A stretch of 64,000 nucleotides of DNA from Mixia osmundae IAM 14324 (Eukaryota; Basidiomycota; Mixiomycetes; Mixiales; Mixiaceae): positions 1,998,068-2,062,067 of the forward strand of contig NW_014575563.1 of the NCBI RefSeq assembly GCF_000708205.1, written 5' to 3'. Positions within the stretch are counted from its first letter, which is position 1, and every line of letters begins with the position of its first letter. Position numbers and translations under genes: made by a program. Positions 19,819 through 39,657 of the stretch are shown piece after piece. The notes beneath the pieces were generated by a model that saw only the letters and a list, made by a program, of their open reading frames with translations, was not told the DNA's origin and made no database searches.

Positions 19819-20059
19819 CTCGAGGGGTTCGTCGTTAGGATCAGCTGATGCACCGTGTATGTCTCCTCGTGCACTGCTGTGTGTCTATTGCTGCTTGTCT
19901 GACCAAGCCTATCGCTCCTCGTGCCCCTCGCCTCCGTCGCTGAGCTTCACTACCGCTGATGATACGCCTCGGGCTCGCTGCACGGCGGTGCGCGCGTCAT
20001 TGAGATGCATTCATATCGATAGCGGTCTCCCTCAGCTGCCTGGCCTGCATGGCCAGCCT

Positions 20060-20532
20060 ATGGAGCTCAGCCTCGACAGCTATGCCAACGCCTATGACGA
20101 GCCAGATGTTGTGACCTTGCTGGTCCTTGTATCTTTCATCCTCTTCCTCAACGTTCCTCGTCATGTCGGCGACACATTGCTCCGTGCAGGCCTGCTGGGC
20201 GAGCTGCTCGTCGGATTCATCTACGATCGGCCTCTCGCCAACACCCTCCAACCGGTACTCGAGCGAGCTTTCACAGACATGGGCTATGTGGCTCTCGTCA
20301 GTCTCGCCTTTCATGGTCAATATCTCATGCGCCGCACATCTCAGATCTCTCACACTGTATCGCAGGCGGCTTGGAGACTGACCTCGCACAAGCGCGCTCC
20401 ACAATCGGTCTAGCTACATTGCTCGCATGTATAGGCGTCGTTGCACCTGTCGGGCTTTCCATTCTCTTGCTCCACGTCGGGTATGGCTACGCGCCTCTTC
20501 AGGCCTTCTCGGCCGGCGCAGCACTCGCTTGA
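20060..20532 (+). pseudogene. 5' half of a CPA2-type Na+/H+ (or K+/H+) antiporter gene, cut by an inversion
   Basis: Exons 20060-20315 and 20366-20532 (50-nt intron). The product starts MELSLDSYANAYDEPDVV and has the first transmembrane segments of a Kef/NhaA-like exchanger (VTLLVLVSFILFLNVPRHVG, LRAGLLGELLVGFIYDRP, GYVALVSLAFHGGLETDL, IGLATLLACIGVVAPVG), ending FSAGAALA. The frame stops six bases after the hexamer GCACTC (20521-20526). In the family the next residues are STSLGTT.T.LG..GLT. Exactly that continuation lies on the other strand, starting at 38,535. This half looks intact, but it encodes only the N-terminal third of a transporter. If translated, it would be a non-functional fragment. 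The mechanism is described under the 18-kb inversion finding. Confidence 0.85.
20521..20526. other. Left inversion breakpoint hexamer GCACTC
   Basis: The last six bases of the contiguous antiporter coding sequence. The reverse complement GAGTGC occurs at 38536-38541 at the other breakpoint, so the exact cut is ambiguous by up to 6 bp, as in microhomology-mediated joining. Confidence 0.75.
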
Positions 20533-20940
20533 GATTCATCCTCGGAACCTCGGCGAAGTCGCAAGAATGATTGATCTGGGATGTCACAGCACGAAAGATA
20601 ACAACGTCGTGCTACCGTAGTCCAACGCATCGGAACTCACAAAGCCGCTGCTTGGTCGATCTCGTTCATCAGGAAGTTTCTGAGTTTGGCTGACGATGAC
20701 CGGGCGAAGCGGCTATTCGCCCGAGCTGGAACGTCACAAGCTCGAGGAAGGCTGCGCGGCTTCCGACTAATGTTTTCTGCTCTTTGACGACGAGGACACG
20801 CTCACGCGCTCGTCAGCCAATGGCCCAGCAAGCCGGTGCCTTCACAGAGAACTGCTTGGGCCATTGCGGAAGCTGTTCAGGCATGCCAAGAGAAGCCGTA
20901 CAGTATTCTCATGCATGTTCGCTACATCGTTTGCCGTCAA
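20527..20940 (+). pseudogene. C-terminal remnant of a trehalose-6-phosphate synthase/phosphatase-like gene
   Basis: Three degraded pieces of a GT20-plus-phosphatase protein appear in order but in changing frames with stops between. LEIHPRNLGEVARMID begins at 20528 and matches the end of the TPS glycosyltransferase ('…NPWN..EVA.AI'). IGTHKAAAWSISFIRKFL (about 20629-20682) matches 'YV..HTA..W..SF...L'. LFDDEDTLTRSS (about 20780-20815) matches the phosphatase box 'LLLFDYDGTLT', with the nucleophile region altered. The upstream half of the same gene is at 38,542-39,657 on the minus strand. The frame leaving that half (…RRGHS) runs into LEIHPRN if the inversion is undone. It is a host gene remnant, not functional. 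Confidence 0.65.
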
Positions 20941-22067
20941 GGTCAAGAAGTCAACTCGCCATTCACGCTGATCCTGTCAAGCGCAGCAGAAATATTGGCT
21001 GCTCAGAGATGTGTCCCAACAGAAAAGGCTCCAGTCAGTCAAAGCGATAGCACCAGTACCAGCCAGGCCAGAGCTTGCTGGCTCTTTGCCAGCATGTTCA
21101 GACGTTTCAGTCGTCGTCGCCGCTGGAAGGAAGCAGAGGCTGCTCTTATGCATGATTCATGATTTCGCAGAGTGGCATACAATTTGACGTCACACTGAAA
21201 CGTGTGCATTGTCTCGTGCTACGTCCTACCGTCTATGTGATCAAGGAGTCCGCAATCCCCAATTCGCAGGGGTATGCACCAGCACTACGCAGAAGCGCTT
21301 CCGATCTGGCACTGATGAAGTTCGCCNGATCTATCGATGGGCGCACGTACCNNNGATGAGCAGCAATCCCCAATTCGCAGGGGTATGCACCAGCACTACG
21401 CAGGAGCGCTTCCGATCTGGCACTGAAGAGTTTCGCCAGGTTTGTCGGCAAGTGCGGCAAGGAGTGGGAAGAAGAATTGGGCGCGCCTTTTATCGCGGTC
21501 TGAAGTGCAGGTTTGCAGACATAGCTCAGACGGCAGTCGCGCGCGTCACGTGATTGGTCTCTCAGCGCGCGGAACAAGCGAGTGAGCGGTCGACTTTCAG
21601 GTGAGGCGTGCCGGGCAGTCTTCATGCTATCGATCCTCACCTGTAGACGCCCTGAATGCACATCTTTCGAGGGCTTCGTGGAAATTGCACATAGAATGGG
21701 CGCTGTACTGGTCAGATCCGCCTGCCGATGTCTGGACTAGCTGTCCATGCATTGTGCGGGTTCAGCCCGCAAGGACGCTGCGCTCATCTAATCGCCTAGT
21801 GCTGACTCGCAGACGCACTCAGCTTGTCCTTGACCCGCGCAAAGTATCAGGCTTTCGTAGATCCTTTCAGGCCATTTGAGCGCCGAGCCTGGCTCCTCCA
21901 GAATGGACGACGCCGAGCAGTCGACCAGTGGCAAATACACCGATCGCGTGCGCCGTGTTGCGACAAGCTCACGATTCGACAAGATCCGGGTAACGCACCG
22001 GCCTCATCTGCTCGTCTGCTCTGAATGCAGCAGCTGTCGAACAGTCCGCTTTCTCTAGCCACAGAAG
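20941..22067. other. Non-coding spacer with ambiguous bases and a short direct repeat
   Basis: About 1.1 kb without a convincing gene. It contains an assembly ambiguity (n at 21327, nnn at 21352-21354) flanked by a ~75-bp direct repeat, and further right a TCACGTGA box immediately followed by ATTGG (21546-21557), a possible promoter element for WSS1. Short open frames here start with non-ATG codons or cross the ambiguous bases. Confidence 0.5.
21252..21437. repeat. Two ~75-bp direct repeat copies (period 111 bp) flanking ambiguous bases
   Basis: Copy 1 spans 21252-21326 and copy 2 spans 21363-21437; both start gcaatccccaattcgcag and share nearly all bases, with a few differences (agaagcg/aggagcg; gatgaag/gaagagt). 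The interval between them holds an n at 21327 and nnn at 21352-21354. Both copies contain gcgcttccgatct, one base from the end of a common sequencing-adapter sequence. This may be a genuine tandem repeat, or an imperfectly closed assembly gap. Confidence 0.7.
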
Positions 22068-23455
22068 ATGGTGCCCGGGCATCGAATCAAGCAACCTACT
22101 TCGACTCATCCGAATGAAGACATTACATTTGTGTCTTGTCTACGGGACCCATCGCTATCCGATCAAGACAGGGCGATGAAGCTCATGAACGGCCTGGCTG
22201 CCCAGTTCAGACGTATGACGAGAGCGAGATGTGAGCCCTCTGTTCGGCTCACGCAGATTGGCGCGCTTAGGAGACGAGAACAGACTATACGTGTAATTCG
22301 CTCGAAGAGGCTCCCTACAACACCGTTAGCAGTCTCGATAGCTCAGTCGTGCAGGACTGAAGACCTCGCAATGTCTGACAGGAATTTCTGGGCCGCAATT
22401 GGAACAAGGGCGAAGTGATTGAAATTGTGTTACGCAATGTCGACGGCAGCTTCCGACCTTTTGGCTCGCTCGTCGCCATCATGTGCCACGAGCTTGCCCA
22501 CAATGTGCACTCCAATCACGGTCCCAATTTTCAGAAACTTGACAAGGAACACCGCGAAGAGATCAAAGCGGCTCAAGGACAAGGCTACTTTGGCGAGGGC
22601 TTGTGGTCAGATGGCAGACAGCTCGAAACCAACGATCGCGTTGCAGGTGAGAACCATTTAGCACATTACGATATGGACCAGTATCTCTGCGCCGGTGACG
22701 GATCCAAGAAGCGGAAGAGTGCAAAACCTTCAAGGCGTCGTTCAAGATGGTACACACGCAGACCTGACAAGTACTCTGGCTCGGGAAGACCAGGCGGTCG
22801 AAAGGCCAAAGCGGGCAGCAAGAACAACAAAAAGGGCGCCTTTGCAGGCGAAGGTCAGACACTGGATGCAGACGAATCCTTTTTTCGCAAACGCGCGCAA
22901 AGTCAGACGGCCAAAGAGCTTCGAGCTGAAGCGGCAGAAAGGAGGCTGGCCGGTCTCCCGCCGGCTGGAAGTATCAACGGACCCATTGCTGGTGCCTCCT
23001 CTGCTGGCAAGAAGATCCAGCGTGACATAGAGGATGCAAGTGCTGTCTCTCTCGCTACAAGAACAGGGCTGACGGTGCTGCAGCTTTCAGCATCTTCTGA
23101 ATCAGATGACGATGCAGGCGTATACGGTTCGGGTGTACCCGTCTGGTCAGCTAGTGGAGAATCAGACGACGACATCGAAGAGGATGCCTTGCATTCTGTT
23201 CGGACGAACGGCACTTTGTCTACGCGTGCGGGTCCGAGCTCAAGCAGAAAGCTGATTCAGCCAAAGATTTCGCTCATAGGCGCCAAGTCGAATGGCAAAT
23301 CGACCGGCAAGTCCAAAGCTGAGTCAAAACGAAAAGTGCAGACAAAGGACGAAGCCCGTGCAAGCACACCAGGCTTTATCGTGATCGATAGCAGCGAGGA
23401 CGGCGACTCGGAAGGCGTGCCTGAGCAGCCTGCGAAGCGATCGCGACGGGATTAG
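22068..23455 (+). CDS. WSS1: WLM-domain DNA-dependent metalloprotease (Wss1-like)
   Basis: SUMO-associated protease of the Wss1/SPRTN type that removes DNA-protein crosslinks. Exons 22068-22230, 22284-22324, 22382-23455; 425 residues. The WLM domain occupies about residues 15-200: NEDITFVSCLRD, then NSLEEAPYNTEFLGRNWNKG across two introns, VIEIVLRNVDGSF, and the zinc motif HELAHNVHSNHG (HExxH plus a third His). The long C-terminal tail is basic and Ser-rich. Near the end, GFIVIDSSEDGDSEG is a good SUMO-interacting motif (hydrophobic core followed by acids). This is the first intact gene inside the inverted block. Confidence 0.9.
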
Positions 23456-23510
23456 GAGCGGTGTTCCTGGTTCGTTCTTGTTGATTGTACAACATACTGC
23501 ACTGTAGACC

Positions 23511-24430
<920 letters not shown>

Positions 24431-24704
24431 CTCGCGCTCCTGCCGTCTTCGCGTTGTGACAGTGCCGCGGCAGCGCGGAAGCCAACGCGAATGCAGCAGA
24501 AGTCAAACGACTCTGCGACTCTCCACACACACAGCACAAGCCCTTCCCACTCTTCACTTTCTACGCTCTGCTCGTGCGATGCCACCGACTTCTGCCAGCT
24601 GGCCGGCGGCTTCTCGCGATCGAAGAACTAACTATAAATCGAACAAGGTTTTGATCGCCAAAACAGCAGGGATGGGGAGCGAGCGTCTCATGCTGGTCTA
24701 GCAG

Positions 24705-26345
24705 ATGCAAGCGGCTCTGGGCATTGCGCCCGAGCCCGCACCTTTGTTGAACCACGTTCACACGGTCACTGTACAGCAGCAAGACGATGCGGACTTGGCA
24801 GAATTGCCAGTCCTCAACCAGTCAGATCCAGCGCCGGCTCTATCTTCGTTTGAGTCTGCCAACAGTACTCTGTCCAAGCGACCCACTTTCAGCAGCTTTG
24901 ACTCGTCCAGTTGGAGTATACCTAAAAAGTCACTGCGCCCAAATGCGCGCTCTGCACTCGCCCATATTGGTCAGATCGGTGCGGCTCCCGCAAGCACGAA
25001 GGAGCTGTCCTTCGTCTTGCCAAGAATTGATGGCGGTAGAGGGGCGATCGGATTTCTAGTACTCGCATGCATCACCGAAGCGCTCGCTTTCGGCCTCGCA
25101 GGCTCGTACGGCGTCATTCTAGACTACTACTTGCAAGTACCAGAGCTTGCGGATTCGCCCCACTCTGCTACCATCTTGCCTCTTGTCGGAACACTATCGG
25201 GCACAGTCGTATATTTCGGTGGACCTCTCATGCTAGCGCCACTCAATCGATATCCCCACAGAAGAAAGGCGATCGTATGGTCCGGTCACGCTCTTTTCTC
25301 GTTGGGCTTGGGACTGGCCAGCTTGGCAAAGACGCCTTGGCAGCTCTTGCTCACTCAGGGCGCGCTTCTCGGTCTGGGTGACACTCTGGCGTACTTCACC
25401 GTCTATACCTGGCTCACAGAATGGTTCGTGCGACGTAGAGATCTTGTGTCTAATCTCTTGCTGGCTGCTTCAGGCTTGGGCGGTGCTATAACGCCCCTCA
25501 TTGTCCACAAGCTGCTCGAGATGTACGGCTGGAGGACGACATTGCGCGCTCTTGCAGTGGGCCTCTTTGCACTCAAGGCACTCATCACGCCCTTCATGCA
25601 CTCGCGTCTTCACCAAGTCCACAATGCTGCAGGCCACGACCCTGGCGTCAAAGTCAGCGCATTCGATCGCATACCCCACCAATCGCCCATCGTCTGGCTG
25701 TGTGCACTGGCCGCTGTGGTACAGAGCACTGCAGAATTCACAATTGGCCTCTACCTTGCAAGCTTCGCTACCGCTGTAGGCGTCAATAGCACACACAGTA
25801 CTCTGCTCGTTACGCTCTTCAACCTCTGTGCTTGTTGCGGTCCCTTGCTTGTCGCTCTCGGGCTCCGCAAATTCAGTCCACACTGGGTTGCGATTGCGCA
25901 AACGACTACCAGCTCGCTCTTCGTTCTCACGCTGTGGGGCGCTTCCAGCTCTTATGGCGTACTCGTCGCATTTGCAATGATCATTGCGATCAGCTCCAGT
26001 GGCTATTCTGGCCTCTTTGGCAGCTTTGCAGAGTACATTCACAAAGACTCTTCGGGCAACACTCTCTGGGGCCTGCTCATGGCCACACGCGGCGTTGGCA
26101 ACCTCGTTGTCGGTCCGCTGGGCGCAGCACTGCTCAAGACAGAATTGACGGGCTTGCGCTGGCGTGGTTATGGCGTCGCTTCACCACAAGCGGGTCATTT
26201 CGGTGGCATCATTCTGTTCGTCGGACTCGCTTTCGCATCAGTCACTATCGTGCACCTGTCTGTCATTTTCATCGCGAGGCGAAGAGGCAGTCACGAGGAA
26301 CGGCCTGCCGAGCATGAGTCAGATTTGCTTGATCCAGTGATGTAG
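24705..26345 (+). CDS. Monocarboxylate-transporter-like MFS protein (intronless paralogue 1)
   Basis: Major-facilitator transporter of the MCT/SLC16 type (fungal relatives include Mch proteins), 546 residues in a single exon. About 150 N-terminal residues are hydrophilic and Ser/Pro-rich; then come DGGRGAIGFLVLACITEALAF (TM1 with the MCT-like DGG…G motif) and SYGVILDYYLQ, and about 12 hydrophobic segments in all, with the conserved loop RLHQVHNAAG and SAFDRIPHQSP in the central region. It is a direct tandem with the next gene, to which it is clearly paralogous (e.g. PHWVAI.TT.SS.., SSSGYSGLFGSFAE/SSGYSGLYGAFAD). The substrate is unknown. The lack of introns contrasts with the partner's two. 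Confidence 0.88.
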   Translation: MQAALGIAPEPAPLLNHVHTVTVQQQDDADLAELPVLNQSDPAPALSSFESANSTLSKRPTFSSFDSSSWSIPKKSLRPNARSALAHIGQIGAAPASTKELSFVLPRIDGGRGAIGFLVLACITEALAFGLAGSYGVILDYYLQVPELADSPHSATILPLVGTLSGTVVYFGGPLMLAPLNRYPHRRKAIVWSGHALFSLGLGLASLAKTPWQLLLTQGALLGLGDTLAYFTVYTWLTEWFVRRRDLVSNLLLAASGLGGAITPLIVHKLLEMYGWRTTLRALAVGLFALKALITPFMHSRLHQVHNAAGHDPGVKVSAFDRIPHQSPIVWLCALAAVVQSTAEFTIGLYLASFATAVGVNSTHSTLLVTLFNLCACCGPLLVALGLRKFSPHWVAIAQTTTSSLFVLTLWGASSSYGVLVAFAMIIAISSSGYSGLFGSFAEYIHKDSSGNTLWGLLMATRGVGNLVVGPLGAALLKTELTGLRWRGYGVASPQAGHFGGIILFVGLAFASVTIVHLSVIFIARRRGSHEERPAEHESDLLDPVM

Positions 26346-26513
26346 CATTGCACAGGCTGTTGAGCGTGATCGAGGAGATCGGCCATTGTGGCCGGAGATC
26401 CGCCGATCACGAACTGATAGAGCAGGCGTGCCCGTCTATCGCCTTTCCTAGGCCAGCCTCTTCAACTTCCTCGCGGGCCTGCTCGGACAGGCGAGCCTGA
26501 CGGCTCTGGCGCT

Positions 26514-28492
26514 ATGCAGTCTGCCTTGCTCAATGCGCCAGAGCCGGACCCAGTTCTCGAGCGAAGCTATACCGTCCGGGTTGCGGAAGGCTCCATTCAA
26601 GCTGCCAACTCGCCCGCACAGATCCCGGCAAGTCCGCCAGCTTTACTGGATTCACCGACAAGCCTCTTACCCGTACTCAACAAGCGTCCGCGGCTACACC
26701 ATAGCACATCCGGCGAGGACACCTACGATGACAGCTCGCCCGAATCTCCCAAGGGCTCCCTGTTCAAACGGCCTACACTCAACAAGTTAAGAACGTCCAG
26801 CTTGAGCACGTACAAGGTGCCTGTCAGGCCGAATGCTCGTGCTGCACTCGCTAGAATCGGGCAGATCAGTGCGGCTCCCACCGCAACGAAAGAGCTTACC
26901 TTTGAGCTTGCAAGAATCGACGGAGGCAGGGAAGCGTTGCGGTTCTTAGTGTATGCGTTCATCTTCGAAGCAACAACGACAGGCATCGGCAACTCCTACG
27001 GTGTCATGTTGGACTTTTATCTTCAACAGCCGACGTTTGCCGACTCGAAGGGCGCGGGGACGATCTTGCCGCTGGTTGGTACCACGGCAGCGAGCTGTTT
27101 GTATATCGGCGGACCCATCTTGCTCGCTCCGCTGAACCGCTGGCCACATCGCTGCAAGAGGCTAGCAATCTTCGGCACCATTGTCTACAGTGCCGGCCTG
27201 GCACTTGCAAGTACTTGTACCAAACCATGGCAGCTGCTCATCACGCAGGGCCTGATCACTGGACTCGCCGATGCTTTGGTGTATTTCACTACTTTCACCT
27301 GGCTGACCAGCTACTGGGTCAAGCGTCGGGACCTTGCGGCCAATATCTCCTTGGCCGGTGCAGGAGTGGGTGGCGCAGTCATGCCATTCGTCGTGCATAA
27401 GCTGCTTGATTCGTACGGATACCCCACGACGCTTCGTGCACTGGCTGTGGGGACCCTCGTGGTACGAGGGAGTCTGCTGCCATTCATGCATTCGCGGCTA
27501 CGTCATGTGCATCAAGCAGCAGGACGCGACCCCGGCGTCAAGCTTAGCGCATTCGATAGAATCCCACACCAGAATCCCTTAGTCTGGCTGTGCGCCTTTG
27601 GCAGCACTGTCCAATCTTTGAGTAAATTCGCAATCGGTCTGTACCTGCCAGCATTCGCAAATGCGCTTGGCTTGAGCACCGAGCAAGGCACTATCCTCGT
27701 CATGCTCAGTAAGCGCACAGACTAGTTATCGATGATGAATGCTGACATGATCCTCAGACAACCTGTGCGCGACAATGGGACCGCTGCTCGTCGGTCTGGC
27801 TGTACGCAAGCTCAACCCGCATTGGGTTGCGATCACGAAGACGACAGTGAGCTCGATGATCGTTCTTCTCCTGTGGGGCGCCAGCTCGACCTACGGCGTC
27901 TTGGTTGCCTTTGCCGTCGTCATTGGTATCACAAGCTCAGGCTATTCGGGTCTGTATGGTGCCTTTGCGGACGACATAACAAAGACGAGCAATAATGGCA
28001 ACACGCTTTGGGGAATGTTGACTCTTGCACGCGGAGTAGGGAACATTATCATCGGGCCCATCAGTGCAGCTCTGGTATGTAACCTATCCTCGCCAGGCCT
28101 ACTTTGCTGAATCTTGATAAAAGCTGCGCACAGAAGTCCCCGGCCTGAAATGGCGCGGCTACGGTGCTCACAGTCCTCAGGCTGGGCATTTTGGCCTGCT
28201 GATCCTCTTCACGGGCTGCACCTTCATCTTCGTGACTCTGATCCACCTGTTCATCATCGCGATTAGCGAACGAGTCGAAGGCCGCAACGCAGGCTCACCC
28301 TCGACTGAGCTGACGCCCGTTCAGCTTGCTGCGCAAGACGACGGGGAACTCAAGACCCAGACACCAGATGAACAGCAGCTTACTATACCTCACCAGCTTC
28401 CACGCCACAGCGCAGACCACAGCACACACAGTGCACACACACATCATTCCCGCGAGAATGTGACGGAGCTCGATATGCTCGATTTTGCTTGA
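26514..28492 (+). CDS. Monocarboxylate-transporter-like MFS protein (paralogue 2, three exons)
   Basis: Tandem paralogue of the preceding gene. Exons 26514-27708, 27758-28074, 28124-28492; 626 residues. It has a long hydrophilic N-terminus, then DGGREALRFLVYAFIFEATT, NSYGVMLDFYLQQP, AYFTVYTWLT/VYFTTFTWLT-type signatures and the shared RLRHVHQAAGRDPG and SAFDRIPHQNP. The C-terminal tail is longer and polar (Gln/His/Ser-rich, …HTHHSREN). Both introns (49 nt each) lie at positions that are continuous coding in paralogue 1 (MLN|NLCATMGPLL and AAL|LRTEVPGLKW). This shows that introns were lost from copy 1 or gained in copy 2. Substrate unknown; plasma or vacuolar membrane location is assumed from the family. 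Confidence 0.88.
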
Positions 28493-28600
28493 CCATCATG
28501 GTGTTGTAGTGCAATAGGGAATACAGTGACACGTTTGCGGAGCAAGGCAGATCCAGAAGTGCACGACAGATCGTACAGCCATGACGCAACGACGCGTAAT

Positions 28601-29733
28601 TTACTTGGGCGGAAGGACATTTTCTGCAAATTCACCATCGTAATTTCCTGGTCAAGATGGTCAGCAGGCACTGGAGGAGTCCAAATTTTGCATACCGGGC
28701 GGACTATAATTGCAGGACCAGAAGTAGCCCATGTTGCTGCAGAAGGTGACAGCGCAGCCCATTGATGTAGTGGATTGCCAGACCATCTGTTCTGCTGGTC
28801 AGCGATGCACATGCGCACATGAGCATGCATACCTGGGTGAAATGGCCAGCAGCATCGGAGAAGCCTGATATGATCTCGCGTCAGTCAAACACATTTGCAG
28901 GAGAGCGAGCACTGACCTGGATTCGAATAGTCATAGTACTTGACTTCATCTTGACCCCACGCTGTGTCAACTTCGGTCGGATTGATGTACCCGCTGGCGA
29001 TGTTCTCGCCATAGAGGTCGGTACCACTGTGCTGGAAGACGCATCGCTTGGTCCAGCTCTGCGCGAAAGCCGCAGCATCGGCATTCCAGGTCAGTGGCGC
29101 TGCCTGGAACTTGGCCCTGAATGCATTGGTCGTCTTGAGGAATTCGGCTTGCATCTGTGCAGGAGCACGAGTATAGTCGGGATTGCCATAGCTATCCAGG
29201 GGGATGGCAGTGCTCGAAGCAGAGGTCGTGCTGCTTGTCTTTGTGGTGCTTGGGCTCGTCTTTGTGGTGCTTGTGCTTGAGCTTGACTGTGTGGAGCTTG
29301 TGCTTGAGCTCGGCTTCGTTGTGCTAGTGCTAGAGACTGCCGAAGCTGGGCTACTCGACTTTGTCGTGCTCGTCAATGGCTTGGAGGTGCTTGTAGGCGG
29401 CGTAGACGTCGTCGTGCTCGCTGGCTTGCTGGTGGTAGTAACTGGCTTTGTGACGCTCGATGACTTTGCTGTCGTTGTCGGCTTAGCAGTGGTTTTCTTA
29501 CTTGAGGTCGTCTTTTTTGCTGGCTTGGCCCGCTTCTTGGGCTTCTTGGTCGATTTCTTCGTCGTCTTCTTCGCAGCTTTGACCTTTTGACGTCTGCGTG
29601 ATTTTGCATCGAATCGAGGTCCATCGGAGCATTCGGCCGAGCGCTTCGCTAGCTCGAGAGTGTCCTGTGGTACAGCTATAGAATGAACGACGACGGCAGT
29701 CGTTAGCAAGAACAGTATCGATGTCACCCGCAT
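28601..29733 (-). CDS. Secreted CAP/PR-1 (SCP) domain protein with Lys- and Ser/Thr-rich linker
   Basis: Pathogenesis-related-1-like (yeast Pry-type, sterol/lipid-binding) secreted protein. Exons 29733-28917, 28864-28833, 28786-28696, 28647-28601; 328 residues. A signal peptide occurs at the N-terminus (MRVTSILFLLTTAVVVHSIA), then a run of Lys-rich sequence (KKTTKKSTKKPKKRAK), then ~100 residues of Ser/Thr/Lys/Pro low complexity (probable O-glycosylated stalk). The CAP domain begins near FLKTTNAFRAKFQAAPLTWN; it includes SGTDLYGENIASGY, GHFTQMVWQSTTSMGCAV, and the terminal WSCNYSPPGNYDGEFAENV. All four introns' phases and the conserved cysteines agree with the family. It is transcribed divergently from RPS19. 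Confidence 0.92.
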
Positions 29734-30058
29734 GCTGATTATGTTATGGTGAAGAAGTCGAGTTGGCAGTGTTGGCGTCGAGCCTGGAGATATAGGTGGT
29801 TAGGTTCTCGTCGGGACCAGCCCAGATATCCGTATGTTAAATGAAGGTGACGGCAAGCAAGCGTTGCCTTGGCGGCGACGACCGATCCGGCCGAGAGGTG
29901 CTTAACACGCTCACTTGTTCTTTTTGGCTTCTTGCCGCGTTTGGAAAGCACGTGACATGCCTTCGATCTGATATCCTTCTTTTTTTTTGGAACGCAGGCG
30001 AGCGTGAGAGATTACGAGTCGCATCTGCTGAGCCACGCCCATAGCCAACGTTGACAAG
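29734..30058. promoter_or_regulatory. Divergent promoter between PR-1 gene and RPS19
   Basis: A 325-bp spacer shared by the secreted PR-1 gene (minus) and RPS19 (plus). It contains the E-box-like CACGTGAC at 29950-29957 and a run of eight T at 29981-29988, about 70-80 bp before the RPS19 start. Both kinds of element occur in fungal ribosomal-protein promoters, but function here is only inferred. Confidence 0.4.
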
Positions 30059-30699
30059 ATGCCGGGCGTTCGAGATGTCGCTGCAAACGACTTCATTACT
30101 GCATACAGCCAACACTTGAAGCGATCAGGTATGTTCAGCTACTGATATCGTCCCTGTACGCCCGGCAGAGGCTAGGGACGAGGTCGGAATCGAGGCTAAT
30201 TTTATTGCGAGCAGGCAAGCTGGAAGTGCCTACCTGGGTCGACATCGTCAAGACGGGTACCTTCAAGGAGCTAGCGCCGTATGACCCAGACTGGTTCTAT
30301 GTCCGCGCTGCCGCCGTCGCTCGTCATGTCTACCTCAGAAAACACGTCGGTGTCGGATCGCTGCAGAAGCTCCATGGTGGCTCGCAGAACAGGGGCAACC
30401 GTCCATCTCGTCATCGTGACGCATCAGGTGGGCTGAGCGTGACCAGCGAGATAGAGCCCAAGGCTGATTTGCGCTATCCGGCAGGCTCCGTCGAGCGCAA
30501 GGTGATGCAAGGCCTCGAAAAGATTGGCGTGCTCGAGAAGGACCCACGGGGTGGCCGAAGAATCAGCCAGGACGGACAGCGAGACTGTATGTGCCTCCTT
30601 GGCAGTACTGCTGACCAAGCTCATGGTCAAGCAGTGGACCGAATCGCATCCTCGCTCGTGGTGCGCGACGACGAGGAAGAGGCCGAGGATGATGAGTAG
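30059..30699 (+). CDS. RPS19: 40S ribosomal protein eS19
   Basis: Small-subunit ribosomal protein needed for 18S rRNA 3' processing and 40S assembly. Exons 30059-30128, 30215-30586, 30635-30699; 168 residues (usual 140-160). The protein starts MPGVRDVAANDFITAYSQHL, continues KRSG|KLEVPTWVDIVKTG, and carries the family core DPDWFYVRAAAVARHVYLRK and VGSLQKLHGGSQNRG, then LEKIGVLEKDPRGGRRIS. The last exon adds a short acidic tail (…DDEEEAEDDE), an extension beyond the yeast protein. Intron 1 is 86 nt, longer than most here, as is common for ribosomal-protein genes; intron 2 is 48 nt. Confidence 0.93.
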
Positions 30700-30965
30700 A
30701 CCGCTCGAGCACTCTCGGATGTGATTGTACTCTGGTCATGCATCGATTTGCAACTGCAGGCAATCGTCTGAGGACGGCAGAGTTCAGCTTAAGTGACATG
30801 TTTGCATTCCTCGGTCACAGATCCGACCATATTTCACACTTTGGATAGAACGAGAAGTATATAATTAGGCCTGCAGGTGAGCCTACAAGTCATGGATGAT
30901 ATGTCTATGGCGCCGGAATCTTTGATATCGATTTTGCAAGGAGGAGGTCGCGGCAGGGCAAGCTC

Positions 30966-31712
30966 TCATTTGATCTGTCGCGCGACACCAATGAGCGCAG
31001 GCCCGGGAGAGCCAGAGATCCGAGACTGACATTACCCGCTCCACCTCGTCCGGCACTGTGCATGTGAGGGTGTGCAGCAGCTTCGGCCTCGTACATCTTC
31101 TTGACGTCAGCCTCGTGAGCGGTCTCCGTCTTGTCGGCTTCGGCCGCGCGAGCACGATCGGCAGGATCGCGGCTTGGACTGCGAATGTTGCCTGCACCGC
31201 CACGGCCAGAGGTGTGGATATCACCCTTGCGGGCCTCGCGCGAGCGGGATCGCTCCTGCTGCTCTCTGGCGTCCTCGGCACGCTCTCTGCGCTCGACCGA
31301 CGGTGACTTTGATCGCGCCATGTTGCCCGCACCACCTCGACCGGTGGACATCAGTCGATCGGGCAGTGCGCCATGCTGGTGACCGCCTGCGCCGCCGTGG
31401 AACGCACGTCCTCTGCCTTCCTCTTCGGCTGGCGAGAGATACGATCAGCCCCGTCTACTGGCGGTCAGATTGGCCAAGTTTACCTGCAGATCCGTGGTGA
31501 TCGCGCTCTCGAGAAACATCGCGGCTTCTGCCACCGACTCGATTGGGCGAGAGTGCCTCTCTGACCTGTCCCACAACAGTCACAATCAGTTCACCGTCCT
31601 ACCCAACCACTCAGTCACTCGTCGGCGTCTTCCTCTGCAGACGCAGATCGACGCGAGCAGAGAAGACGTCAGAGAGGATGCGTGGACCGACCTTGTCTAG
31701 TGCGCCCGTCAT
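30966..31712 (-). CDS. PAR32: PAR32 family (DUF3602) GRGGAGN-repeat protein
   Basis: Small phosphoprotein family acting downstream of TORC1; yeast Par32 inhibits ammonium transporters. Proposed exons 31712-31692, 31565-31484, 31428-31031, 30974-30966; 169 residues. The repeat GRGGAGN occurs three times (STGRGGAGNMARSKS; TSGRGGAGNIRSPSR; SAGRGGAGN), with a related HGGAGGH upstream, separated by basic/acidic charged segments. If the intron 31030-30975 is spliced, the protein ends GRGGAGNIK; if it is not, translation continues to 30905. The middle exons join in phase. The first exon (MTGALDK) with its 126-nt intron is the weakest part and rests on phase only. Confidence 0.75.
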
Positions 31713-32053
31713 CGTAGCTGTGGAGTGACTTGCTTTGCCTGGTGCTGCAGAATGAAAAAGCGCACGATAACGACGAACGCAGCTTGGCAGAGCTCCCGAG
31801 AGACGCCACTTTGCATTGTGCTCTTTACTGTCGCTCGCGACGCTCACGGTCGTGCAGGCGTGGCGGACTCGACGGGCGACCACGAAGCCAGCAGAAGAAG
31901 AGTGTGTCCGGCTTGCATCATTGATCCAGTGGTCCGTCTACTGATCATGCTTTGCGTGGCAGACACCAAGCTCTGAGTGCAAGTTGAGCACATATAGCAG
32001 CCCACTACTAGGCAACATCGCTTGCAGCCTGCAGCCCAACCTCCGTCTTTGCC
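31713..32053. other. Divergent spacer between PAR32 and UGP1
   Basis: About 340 bp holding both promoters. The overlapping short frames on both strands show no family features. I see no obvious motif. Confidence 0.35.
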
Positions 32054-33944
<1,891 letters not shown>

Positions 33945-34075
33945 TGTAACATTGCAACCATGCTGAGCACCTCTGCGCGTGAGGACTGCTTCTCTCGGCT
34001 CTGACGCGGACGATCACGCGCGGCGCGCAAAACGCTCAAATTTCGTTCACGAGAGCCTCGACCTTGCTTGTCGTC

Positions 34076-35207
34076 ATGGGTCTACGGACAGCCTTGGAAA
34101 AGCGCAAGAATGTGCAAAAGACGAGCAAGACAAAGGGCAAGCATGTCAAGTCGGCAGAAGAGCCTGTCGTCGAGCCAAAGTCGATATTGAAAAAGCCAAA
34201 AGTCAAGCAGAGTGTCCTTGCTGCGCTGGCGGAGGACGGTGTAGATAGGCCTGCGTCGATCAAGAAGGGCAAAGGCAAGGCGGTCGTGAGCAGCTCAGTC
34301 TCGGCAGAAGCGCCAACTGTTACATTCGACACTGCGCCTGCAAAAGAGTCTGCAAAGGATCCCAACGATTTCGTAGCACTAGGCCTGCCGACTTCAGATG
34401 ATGAAGACAGCTCAGATGATGACAGACAAGCTGATGATGAGGCGATACGCAAAGCCAAATCGGAGCTCTCCCAAGGTCTGGCAGACTCGATGCCTAAACT
34501 CAACAAGAGCGACGAAGCAGTCAGACAACGACTCGACAAGGCAAAGAAGGATCCCAACCAGAAGCCAGGTGTCATCTATCTCGGACGTCTGCCTCGTGCT
34601 TTTGCAGAGAAGGAGATGCGGTCCTACTTTGGTCAATTCGGCGAAGTAACGCGTTTGCGACTCGCTCGCTCTACCAAGGTCAGTCTAGCTCACATGTCAC
34701 AGATACAAAGGCTCATGTACGGCATGCAGACGGGCGGCTCAAAGCACTATGGCTACATTGAATTCGCGCACGAATCTGTAGCGGAGATTGTCGCAGAAAC
34801 GATGAATAACTATTTGCTCGCCGGTCATCTGCTTCAATGCAAGGTCGTACCGCCCGCAGAAGTGCACCCTCGACTCTGGATAGGAGCGAACAAAAAGTCT
34901 GGTCTCATCTCGCCTGGCTTTGCTGCTCGCACTGCGCACAATGCGGTCAGTCATTCGCGATTGACATTTCCTCCTGCTGAAGGGCTTGCAGCCCAAGGAT
35001 GAAGCGAAGAAGGCCAAGATTGCCCAGCGACTGTTGTCAAGAGAAGCCAAAAAAAGAGCCAAGCTGACTCAGCAGGGAATAGAATACGACTTTGAGGGCT
35101 ATGCGGCGTCCAAGCGCAAGCGCGCCGCACCGGCATCGGAGGAGCCTGTGCTCAAGAAAGCTAACAAGCGAGCAAAGACGACCAAAGCTACCCTCATCTC
35201 CGCCTGA
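34076..35207 (+). CDS. NOP15: Nucleolar RRM protein, Nop15/NIFK family
   Basis: Pre-60S ribosome-biogenesis factor. Exons 34076-34678, 34730-34945, 34992-35207; 344 residues. The N-terminal ~160 residues are Lys-rich and acidic. The RRM (about residues 166-245) begins [20 protein letters not shown], with [20 protein letters not shown] across the first intron, [20 protein letters not shown] and the trailing [18 protein letters not shown] typical of Nop15. The region [19 protein letters not shown] is basic, and the C-terminus is rich in Lys/Arg. The ATG at 34076 is chosen because the four upstream in-frame codons start with TTG. Confidence 0.92.
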
Positions 35208-35279
35208 TCATGTTGTGAAATCTCTCTTGCATATGTTACAATAGTGCTACGAACTTGACTGATCCCATTCTTGATCTTA

Positions 35280-36936
35280 TTAAACCGCTCGCAATTCCGT
35301 CAATCTGCTAGAGAGATTGTCCGTGCCGTGCATATCGGCAGATGCGAAAAAATGCTTCTTGTCTGACATTGGCGAATTTGCTTGACTGTGCGTGCGAGAT
35401 GAAGGTGCGCTCGATTCTGCAGAGGCAAGACCGCCCGCGGCATGCTCCCTTCGCAAGCTTGCTGAAGGTGATGCATCTACTGGACTGTCGCCCTGAACTG
35501 CGTGACCCTGGTCCTTCGATGCCCGTCGGTGTTGATGGCCAGCTTCTGGTCCGTGTGCCTCTTCGCCACCCTTGATGATCCACTCGGACAAGCCTGGCTT
35601 GCCATCGCCGTATTCTCGCCAGCGATCATACTGTGCCTGTCGTCTCTCTGCCGCCAGCTTGACCAGTGCCGGGAAATAAGTGTCGTGGTTCTGAAGAGTA
35701 TTGTCAGCAATGCCTACGAAAGATCATGGCCAAAACGTACATATTGAAAATCGAGCGCGCCTCCGAAAGTTGACTTATCAAGCTGCTCGGCTGGTATCAG
35801 ATCGGTCGTTTTGGGATTGAACCTGATCTTGTCTTTGGTCATGGGATCGATGAAAGGCCCGACGAGCTGTTTTATCCGGTTAGCCCACCTGTCGAGAGAG
35901 ATGCGACGTGCTTGCCTTGTAGAAGCCCCAGAAGACGAGCGGGACGCGCACACAGCACGCTCGACCGAGGCGCTCGCAGTAGTAGTTCTGCAGGATATTG
36001 AGGACTTCGCGAGCTTGTCCCAGCGAAGTGGGTTGCCCGCCACCATGTCCGCTCCCAAAGTCAATATTCTATGCAGAATGTCAGCGCGACAGATACGAGG
36101 AGGACGTGGTACGCACAAGACACAGTGAGTCCACACCGGGTGGCATGAGGTCGACAGCGCGTTCGAGACACCAGACGACGAATTTGATCTGTCGCGGGCC
36201 TGTCTTTGTCTAAAACATCGTGTCAGCATACTGTATGGCAACCCCAATTCGGATGACTCGCGTTTTGACGACCCGGATACATATACAGTACGGGTCTGGA
36301 GTGGATATCGTAGCCGAGCAGCAGCTCCTTGCCCGTCAGCGCCTCCTCTTCTATCTCCTTGTCTGACAGTTCCTCCACGCCATATTCGCGTCGCCAGACA
36401 ATCGTCTCCTCGGCGCGAGCGGTAGCCTTGTTGAGGTCCCATCTGACGGATCGGCATATACGCTCGAGCGATTCCTTGGAGAGGTAGCACTTCTCCTTGT
36501 CAGTCAGTGCCGCCAAGGAGTCACTCGTCCGCATCGAGCTCGCGTAGCTCTGGTAAGAGTCGCCACGCGTGATGGCTGGCCTGGCGTTGTTGTCGAGCTG
36601 ATTGAGACCCGAAGCTCGACGTTGCGCTCGCGTCAAGTCCTTGAGACCTTTTAGCGTACGTGGCAAGACGAGATCTGGTGCCGATAGATAAGCCAAGAGC
36701 GAGTCGTAGGTGCTTTGTTCCGTCTTCGTCAGAGGGGCGCGGGCTGGCGGAAGCGAGCTAGACGGTGCTGGATGTTCGATAGGCAGGTACCAAGGCTGCT
36801 TGCCCGACATCTTGCTTGTTGGGTGCTCCAAGGAGGTATGAGACCCGTGTGATTTGCCATTGGTGATACTCGATGCAGTACTCGGGGATGAAGGTGTGGA
36901 CTGGCCCTTGTGGTGGTTATTGAAACCCAAGACCAT
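35280..36936 (-). CDS. CRAL-TRIO (Sec14-like) lipid-binding protein
   Basis: Phosphatidylinositol/lipid-transfer family member resembling fungal PDR16/CSR1-type proteins. Exons 36936-36262, 36209-36117, 36068-35916, 35866-35741, 35690-35280; 485 residues. A Ser-rich N-terminus and CRAL-TRIO-N segment (SVRWDLNKATARAEETIVWR) precede the lipid-binding domain: PVLYMYPGRQNTKTGPRQIK, VVWCLERAVDLMPPGVDSLC, PTSLGQAREVLNILQNYYCE, RVPLVFWGFYKLVGPFIDPM, then LIPAEQLDKSTFGGALDFQY. The tail is polar and Ser-rich. Two introns have GC donors (36261-36210 gcgagt; 35915-35867 gcaagc), each at a place where the family sequence is contiguous. The start is the first ATG in frame after a probable 5' UTR or upstream exon. 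Confidence 0.88.
35867..35915 (-). other. GC-AG intron in the CRAL-TRIO gene (3')
   Basis: A 49-nt intron with donor AAG|gcaagc and acceptor aaacag, joining FWGFYK to LVGPFIDP (family 'FWGFFKLITPFIDP'). There is no GT donor in a usable position. Confidence 0.75.
36210..36261 (-). other. GC-AG intron in the CRAL-TRIO gene (5')
   Basis: A 52-nt intron with donor AAC|gcgagt and acceptor tgttttag, joining YPGRQN to TKTGPRQIK (family 'HPGRQNT..SPRQI'). The GT four bases downstream gives the wrong frame. Confidence 0.72.
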
Positions 36937-37518
36937 TTCTGCCTGCAATCCGGGAGTTCCACTCGGTTTTGTATGTCGAGGCGAGCCAAGGCGGAGTCAG
37001 CGGCGCTGGTCAGCATGCTTACACGCGCCGCTCCGGCCGGCTGGCTGCTAACGCCGCGCGAATTTCTTCACGCAAATTTTTTATTCTCAACTCCGATGTG
37101 ATGCCGAGAAAGATCAGCGAGAGCTGACGGCTGTAGCAGGACTGCGCCGAGCAAGCTCGACGTGAGTGCGAGTTTTGCGAATGCACAGACCTGTCTATGA
37201 CAGCTCGCTATTCTTTTCTTAAGCTCCGTCCTGGTCATCAGTTCCTGCGATCACCGGCGAGGACCTTGCGCCAGCGTGATCACTCGATGGCTCAACAGAG
37301 ACGCAGAAAGACTCGGAAGGGCGACATTAATCACGGTCTGCTTCGTATGACTACAGCGAGAATCGTTTCATGCCGTCGTCACATGCATTCACTTTTCAAA
37401 GGCTACGTTTGCTTGCTTGCAGTAGTTGCGGATTATGAGCACTCGCGTGGCATTCCGTGAGCACGACGTGAAAGTGCACCCACGAGGATAGACCGCAGTA
37501 GTGTGTTGAGCAGTATGG
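36937..37518. other. Spacer left of the antiporter 3' remnant
   Basis: About 580 bp containing the presumed promoter of the CRAL-TRIO gene and the 3' flank of the broken antiporter gene. The short frames have no recognisable features. Confidence 0.35.
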
Positions 37519-38535
37519 ATCAGCTGATTATGAGAAAAAGTGAGTACTCGATAGCACCCGCTTGAAGCGCTACTTGGGCGATGAGTAGCCCCACTTTCGC
37601 CTCGCGCAATCATTGCACTGGCCAGCAATGCCGTCGGAAGCCAGAAGCTCATCTCTTTGGAACTCGACGGCGTAACCCCCGGCGATGCTTGATCGGTGTT
37701 GTTGGACGCTGATGCTTCGCCTGTTGCACCGTTCGCTTTTGCCTCGTCGACAGTGGGAGCTTCTCTGACGGCTTGTGCTGGCGAGCCATGGGAATAAGAT
37801 GTGTCTCTGATCTGTCGCCGCTTTGCATCGTCGCGCTCTCGAAGATGCCGCACCGAAAGTGCTCTTCTTGCATGTGAGATGACGACCCAGATGCCCACGA
37901 TAGCTTTATCAATGCAGCATACTGAAGCGTATAGCACGCCGTTCAAGACGATTTCGCCACTGAATATCTCCCTGACCGGGATCGCAAAGCCGATGCTGGC
38001 AAAGAAGAGCGGCAGCCAGAGATACGATTGCACTTGCGAGACAAGCTCTTCAGATGTTGCTGCAAAGGATCTCGTCGTCCTCATGTGAGGTCGTATGTCG
38101 AGGTAGCTCAAGGCGAGGCCGGCAAAGAAGGCGCCTAGGAGGAGCGTCGTTCCTGCGTGAGCTGCCGCACTGAGGCCAACGCCTAGCAAGCATCAGAACC
38201 AGCTTTGTGCGTCTGATCGAGTGATCTGATTGAAGTCTGGCTTTGGCTTCCGCTCGTCGCGCTAGCCAGGCCAGTGGCCATCTCGTGATCGTGTAGCTGC
38301 ACAAGAGCATGCCGACAGAGACGCCGGGAGGTCGCAAGATGATCTCAGTCAGATTGTTGTCATGCTCGTGTCCATAGCCAGACACAGATGGAGGCAAGGC
38401 GAGGACAAGTTGGAGTAATATCAGAGCTATCACATCATCGATGAGTGCGGCACTTTGCAATACTGAACCGATACGCGTCTCGGTCAAGCCGGAAGCGCCC
38501 AGTGCAGTCAGCGTTGTGCCTAGCGAGGTCGAAGA
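37519..38535 (-). pseudogene. 3' half of the antiporter gene, orphaned and frameshifted
   Basis: Minus-strand remnant that begins exactly with the residues missing from the 20,060-20,526 half (SSTSLGTTLTALGASGLTET…, then SAALIDDVIALILLQLVLAL). The aspartate pair in LIDDV is the expected ion-binding motif of the family. Later transmembrane segments are recognisable (LGVGLSAAAHAGTTLLLGAF, YLWLPLFFASIGFAIPVREI, MIARGE|VGLLIAQVALQAGAI). The reading frame changes near 38,184-38,190 and again near 37,588-37,600 without intron signals, so this half has decayed. It has no start codon or promoter of its own. A sequencing error could explain one shift but hardly both. Confidence 0.8.
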
Positions 38536-38541
38536 GAGTGC
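38536..38541. other. Right inversion breakpoint hexamer GAGTGC
   Basis: Inverted copy of the GCACTC found at 20521-20526. To its left lies the antiporter 3' half, to its right the trehalose-phosphate-synthase-like 5' half, both on the minus strand. Confidence 0.75.
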
Positions 38542-39657
38542 CCCCGTCTTATCAGATTCGTCAGGCCAATGACTCGGACAAGCTGAGCGGCCTTCTTAGC
38601 TCGGCTTGAAATGGGTTGAACGACACGCCGATGGTCCTCGTAACATGACGAATGGTGATGATCAAGCAGACGTTGGCCGCAGTCATTGAGGCAGAGTATC
38701 GTTCGCGTTATCATGACTGATGATGGTGGTGTAGTGGCTGCCAGTGTAGGCTGCTCTACGTCGCATCGATTGATCGCCCATGTCGTTGGCGGCAGGCGAT
38801 GTTGCTTGGAACATAACGACTTGTCCGATCGGTCAGGATAAACCTTGCAAGAGCCACTTGCACGCTCGGAGCTCAAATATGACCCTCTTCGTGGGATCGA
38901 GCTTGCCTGGTCAGGGCCGATTGCATTCGGCTGCATGAAGCGAGCGCATAGCGCTCGAACACAGAGGTCGACGCCGTATTCGATTCGCTCTGCGTCGATA
39001 ATAATGGGCGATAGTCGATTGCGCAGAAGATAGCATTGTTCGACGTCGCTCTTGGCAGGTTCGTGCCCATGACAAGAACGCAGGTATGCGCTTACGAGCA
39101 GAGAGCATGCGAGTATGTCTGGCAGGTAGATGTGAATGAGCGAAGATGCTGATGCAGCTGTCGGGACAGCGTTAGCGGGGCAAGAACATGAGGTGGCAGT
39201 TGTCGATGTAGATCAGATCGCCAGACCTGTACACTTCGGTCAGCCGATCGGCGAAAGCGAAATTGGCGGCATAGAAAGCTGGCCAGGTTCTTGCTCCATC
39301 CTCTTTCTCCCCGTTGTTCACGAGCGCCCGATAGTGCAAGAAAGGCCAAACGCAGCCTTTGCAATAGCCTTCGTAGGAGGCAACCGCGCCCTTGTCATCT
39401 GAGCTGGCAGGAGCATACTGGCCTCTTCTCTGAGCCAATCGGAATGGCGGCAGCGGACGCTGCTGAGATTGCGACGCTGCCCGCGAGTCGAATAATTCTG
39501 GAGTGTACGCCGTCATCAAGCGAATTTGTGCTTCCTGAGCATGTGCAAAGCGGTGAGACGTCGCTACCGCGGTCAATGCACGTACTAGGACGGCATTTGG
39601 GCTCGCCGCCACGGTCATCTGACACCATTGGCACGGTAGGACGAGGCAAAGGCACAC
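38542..39657 (-). pseudogene. N-terminal remnant of a trehalose-6-phosphate synthase (GT20)-like gene
   Basis: Minus-strand remnant. At 39,380-39,172 it reads SYEGYCKGCVWPFLHYRALV and FAFADRLTEVYRSGDLIYID followed by NCHLMFLP, which is the GT20 block '..GYCN..LWPLFHY … FAD.I...Y..GD.IW.HDYHLMLLP'. In a shifted frame it continues with FAHSHLPARHTRMLSARKRI (family 'FLHTPFPSSEIFR.LP.R.EI'). Stops and frame changes follow, and the last open frame runs …LVRVIGLTNLIRRGHS into the breakpoint. The upstream region 39,395-39,820 has open frames but no recognisable domain. The matching C-terminal remnant is at 20,527-20,940. It is probably inactive. Confidence 0.7.

Follow-up and report, generated by a model that had tools for sequence, protein, structure and literature searches.

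Three described systems come closest to the locus reported here. In D. mojavensis, inversions 2h and 2q are attributed, in the published account of their breakpoints, to staggered breaks followed by end joining, and they carry inverted duplications at both ends (PMC3355041). The human inversion HsInv0379 is described as disrupting ZNF257 and yielding a fusion transcript (PMC4591017), and among the structural variants described in Fusarium graminearum there are breakpoints that lie in coding sequence (PMC11152077).

The window analysed here, a stretch of 64,000 nucleotides, corresponds to positions 1998068-2062067 of contig C1 of Mixia osmundae IAM 14324, whose genome comprises 13.5 Mb in 19 contigs. 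M. osmundae is a fern fungus with a small genome. The window holds an inversion that splits a gene, and this is a new example of an already known type of event. As in 2h and 2q of D. mojavensis, the inversion appears to result from two breaks, DNA that was once single-copy would now stand inverted at both ends, and the genes at the breakpoints are altered; however, the duplications described there measure about 1-7 kb, whereas those in Mixia would be 5-6 bp (PMC3355041). Mixia also differs from D. mojavensis in being a fungus, with one break in a coding exon and the other in a gene relic. As described for HsInv0379, an inversion of this kind breaks a gene and can place a promoter and first exon before other sequence, but the human fusion RNA was documented by RNA-seq and RT-PCR, whereas the chimera in Mixia is a gene model only, E5Q_00525 (PMC4591017). 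With the F. graminearum variants the Mixia case shares fungal rearrangement breakpoints within genes, although isolates were compared in that account (PMC11152077), while the Mixia inversion was reconstructed inside a single genome. It is resolved to the base, with a paralog and protein homologs serving as yardsticks.

Two genes rejoined by flipping one segment

A fungal cation/H+ antiporter gene (PF00999) is represented on the plus strand by its N-terminal half at 20060-20526, where a 50-nt GT-AG intron separates exons 20060-20315 and 20366-20526 (139 codons). Its C-terminal half lies on the minus strand at 37448-38535, starting at 38535, with its extent taken from homolog alignments. A check of the sequence found the N-terminal frame running to GCACTC at 20521-20526 and GAGTGC, the right copy of the same six bases, at 38536-38541 (both read on the plus strand), the letters being exactly those given by the sequence-only reading. 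The left breakpoint falls between 20526 and 20527, its exact place being ambiguous inside the common 6 bp, and the right breakpoint falls between 38535 and 38536.

The second interrupted sequence is the relic of a trehalose synthase/phosphatase-like (TPS2-like) gene. Its decayed 5' part, belonging to the GT20 domain, occupies 38542-39414 on the minus strand, and its 3' part, comprising the end of the GT20 domain and the start of the trehalose-phosphatase domain, begins at 20527 on the plus strand. An intact frame with both GT20 and trehalose-phosphatase domains is present on the minus strand of contig C5 at 396641-398998 and represents a TPS2-like paralog; the relic aligns with it into the phosphatase domain and is recognisable to about 20890. 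A further relative was found on C2 at 511.7-513.2 kb.

Flipping a single segment, 20527-38535 (18,009 bp), makes both junctions contiguous with known genes. In the flipped order the antiporter frame reads AFSAGAAL|SSTSLGTT across the joint. Against PF00999, the N-terminal half scores 21.5 bits and a 116-aa piece of the C-terminal half 29.2 bits, while the joined piece reaches 66.1 bits, and its two parts cover adjoining profile positions, 19-113 and 114-202. With this score above the curated cut-off of 26.2 bits, the joined piece is, as predicted from its sequence, a fungal cation/H+ antiporter. Scoring 7997 candidates gave 205 related proteins, of which 120 are listed; 14 homologs picked from these 120 were aligned together with two Mixia proteins, and the joint is without a gap in all 14. 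A frameshift-tolerant aligner gave the same picture in 6/6 homologs, the N-terminal half stopping at residue n and the C-terminal half beginning at n+1. The best match to the antiporter was L969DRAFT_42303 of M. osmundae IAM 14324 itself, whose tag we take to denote the JGI assembly.

The same cut points are obtained from the TPS2-like gene. The C5 gene matches the unflipped window in two pieces (141 and 187 bits) that end at 20526 and 38544, and the flipped window in a single piece of 934 bp (one HSP, 309 bits). The minus-strand frame reads IRRGHS|LEIHPRNLGEVARMID at this joint, and the sequence-only reading had relied on its in-frame continuation. The frame is indeed open, but only by coincidence: a frame change nearby compensates for the 7 bp that the joint has in excess. 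The alignment with the paralog is the real evidence.

Both broken genes thus rejoin at identical cut points, as had been proposed, and the flipped junctions agree with intact proteins. Because two unrelated genes agree on where the cuts lie, these sequence comparisons strongly support a simple two-break inversion of 20527-38535, most simply explained by breakage followed by end joining. We infer that the rejoined gene order is the ancestral one.

Condition of the two broken genes

The N-terminal half of the antiporter contains no frameshifts or stops in 6/6 homolog alignments. The C-terminal half carries two frameshifts in 6/6 alignments and one in-frame stop in five of them, the sixth alignment stopping earlier; these disablements therefore fit a dead gene and not a live gene that was misassembled. 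Between the halves no difference in decay can be demonstrated (0 in 139 codons against 3 in 349; Fisher P = 0.56). When the 148-aa joined piece was searched against the genome at E <= 1, the two halves in the window were the only matches, so a second antiporter copy was not found at this threshold. Matches to the PF00999 profile occur at four further places in the genome, at C1:438-440 kb, C1:1320-1321 kb, C1:1817-1819 kb and C4:1010-1012 kb. The antiporter was presumably functional before the break, and it could also have died before it. A transporter for which no second copy is detected can in this way vanish in a single step.

The TPS2-like relic is more heavily damaged. When its 5' and 3' pieces, of 275 + 114 codons, were aligned separately, they showed 4 + 4 frameshifts and 5 + 2 counted stops. 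This amounts to 15 disablements over 389 codons, compared with 3 over 488 for the antiporter (139 N-terminal codons plus 349 C-terminal codons aligned to homolog P0003; Fisher P = 0.001), the references being unequally distant, with 51-55% amino-acid identity between the relic and C5 and 39-58% between the antiporter and its homologs. If decay rates were similar, the TPS copy therefore died first, and from these counts it was probably dead already when the inversion took place, with one live gene broken. Taken literally, the earlier statement that a gene is cut at both breakpoints holds, but the decay of the TPS copy very probably preceded the cut, which leaves the antiporter as the one functioning gene that was broken.

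Origin of the six shared bases

The antiporter uses the six bases as codons for A-L ahead of SSTSLGTT, and the site is gapless in 14/14 homologs. At the other joint, the comparison between relic and C5 gene places 7 extra bp in the relic, beginning one base from the junction under 6/6 scoring schemes. This insertion is the longest in five of the six scorings and is tied with one other in the sixth; as drawn, it includes five of the six shared bases, that is, five of the six bases of GAGTGC, in all six scorings. Consistent with this, the C5 protein is ungapped at the joint site in three alignments among the 27 PDB sequences matched. The comparison uses a paralog and not an ortholog, which takes the place of the ancestor at about 68% nucleotide identity. 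Further indels occur in the relic as well, with 7-14 insertion events counted over 869 bp according to the scoring scheme.

Since the six bases are coding and gapless in the antiporter, while the C5 paralog has no counterpart, they belong to the antiporter. GCACTC stands in inverted orientation at both ends today and is absent from the paralog at the TPS site in 6/6 scorings, the arrangement expected of a staggered break. The six bases are most likely antiporter bases that were duplicated to the other joint by fill-in of such a break, with 1-2 G added.

The sequence-only reading had instead taken the 6 bp for an inverted microhomology that existed beforehand. The same inversion would then have arisen through microhomology-mediated joining, with GCACTC present in inverted orientation at both sites beforehand and guiding the joint. 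Such a course would agree with the presence of the six bases at both ends in opposite orientation, and the further indels of the relic show that it does acquire insertions. But taking the C5 paralog as the ancestor, the bases were not at both ancestral sites: the intact paralog is without them, the three PDB homologs among the 27 matched show no additional residues at that position, and the joining would require an independent earlier insertion exactly at the break site. This explanation is probably wrong, and we regard microhomology-mediated joining as unlikely. A chance insertion in the relic before the inversion is conceivable, given its other indels. The accompanying claim that no base was lost held in that nothing is missing, but compared with the paralog the right joint has gained about 7 bp.

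For the staggered-break mechanism, the following course of events can be proposed. Two double-strand breaks with end joining would have produced the inversion of 20527-38535. One break would have fallen inside the functioning antiporter gene, its ends staggered by about 5-6 nt; filling these in would have placed GCACT(C) in opposite orientation at the two ends of the segment. The second break, in the relic of the duplicated TPS2-like gene, would have been almost blunt, and the join would have received 1-2 extra G. The net change would be zero loss and a gain of about 7 bp, and the antiporter would have been split in two, its C-terminal half decaying since. We infer the order of these events from the unequal decay of the two genes. 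The whole account, comprising a genuine inversion, two double-strand breaks, fill-in of a staggered break and end joining, is one that we consider probable and hold short of certainty because the C5 gene, about 68% identical, is a paralog. It would contribute an example from fungi of a very small inverted duplication at the joints that indicates staggered breaks.

Gene models, repeats and genes carried by the segment

A gene model of the same strain, E5Q_00525, is located on a contig of 451,752 bp, compared with 2,325,249 bp for the contig of the window, and it therefore comes from a different assembly. Its tag presumably refers to the assembly of Nishida and colleagues. That assembly is described as built from 454 reads with Newbler into 283 contigs, with AUGUSTUS gene models constructed on RNA-seq alignments (PMC3376729). 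E5Q_00525 maps colinearly to the plus strand of the window from 19859 to 23452, where it follows the antiporter exons, continues through pieces at 21.2-21.9 kb and ends in a WLM-domain gene (PF08325; 22068-23455, plus strand) that lies inside the inversion and forms the 3' part of the chimeric model. In the ancestral order this WLM gene would lie about 15 kb away on the opposite strand. Since the model joins the N-terminal half of the antiporter to the inverted WLM gene, the left-hand order is present in both assemblies, which represent one strain, IAM 14324. The left junction falls inside an intron of E5Q_00525, and the model supports the order of the pieces and not the bases at the junction. 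For the right junction in the other assembly, models of 76-243 aa were sought, and 0/112 candidates matched at E <= 1e-10.

These observations bear on the possibility of an assembly artefact, in which the segment was simply misoriented in contig C1. In favour of it, four N bases are present some 800 bp in from the left end, within a segment that has a 92% copy on C3. Against this, a different assembly gives the same left-hand order, no repeat common to both ends was found, the disabling changes in the C-terminal half are unlike a live gene, and a misjoin would not make 7 extra bp at the joint. We consider an artefact of this kind very improbable.

The model E5Q_00525 also raises the question of a new gene. 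The antiporter promoter and N-terminal membrane helices might now head a spliced chimeric product with the WLM-domain protein, a reading that comes from a single gene model and that we regard as unlikely. If the chimera were real, a new gene encoding a membrane-tethered WLM protein would have been made, with the C-terminal half of the antiporter decaying meanwhile; the antiporter-WLM model is in any case a testable candidate chimeric gene. A search for other models akin to E5Q_00525, at 374-1190 aa and with 8000 candidates scored, returned only itself. At the other end, L969DRAFT_42303 (37254-38814, minus strand), a model of the window's own assembly, joins TPS-relic sequence to the C-terminal half of the antiporter across the right junction. 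This fusion is probably an annotation artefact of the inversion.

A repeated segment of 908 bp at 20919-21826, within the inverted DNA, starts 392 bp away from the left breakpoint and has a 92% copy at C3:149157-150065. Its position near one end would suit an inversion by ectopic recombination or transposon activity between inverted repeat copies near the ends. However, a comparison of 17.0-23.5 kb with 35.5-42.0 kb gave zero self-matches (E up to 10, words of 7, dust on), inverted self-matches in the segment measure 10 bp at best among the matches listed, and both breakpoints fall in coding or once-coding sequence. With no partner found at the right breakpoint, the 908-bp repeat was rejected as the cause, and we consider a repeat-mediated origin extremely improbable. 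Between the C3 region with the other repeat copy and the TPS region of C5, the only match lies at C5 399.49-399.62 kb, which is outside the TPS2-like frame. No RNA genes were found at the ends, nor elsewhere in the window, by Rfam (gathering threshold) or ARAGORN (bacterial code).

The 908-bp repeat also has a 77% partial copy at C5:522145-522399 and an internal 85-bp duplication (21252-21336 and 21363-21447), and the four N bases of the window (21327 and 21352-21354) lie in and between the two 85-bp copies. Many scattered N bases were likewise seen at C5:525825-526330 (L015 7826-8331), near two matches, both short and weak, to the repeat region of the window.

Among the scanned ORFs, at least eight genes inside the segment match Pfam, namely the WLM gene, a methyltransferase (PF02390), two MFS transporters, and CAP, DUF3602, UDPGP and RRM genes; an ORF pair at 35.7-36.9 kb gave zero Pfam matches. 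The sequence-only reading had put the number of intact genes carried along at twelve or so, which may or may not be right given this lower bound of eight. The two MFS transporter genes are adjacent, at 24705-28110, and look like a diverged tandem duplication, with 68-74% nucleotide identity in three blocks.
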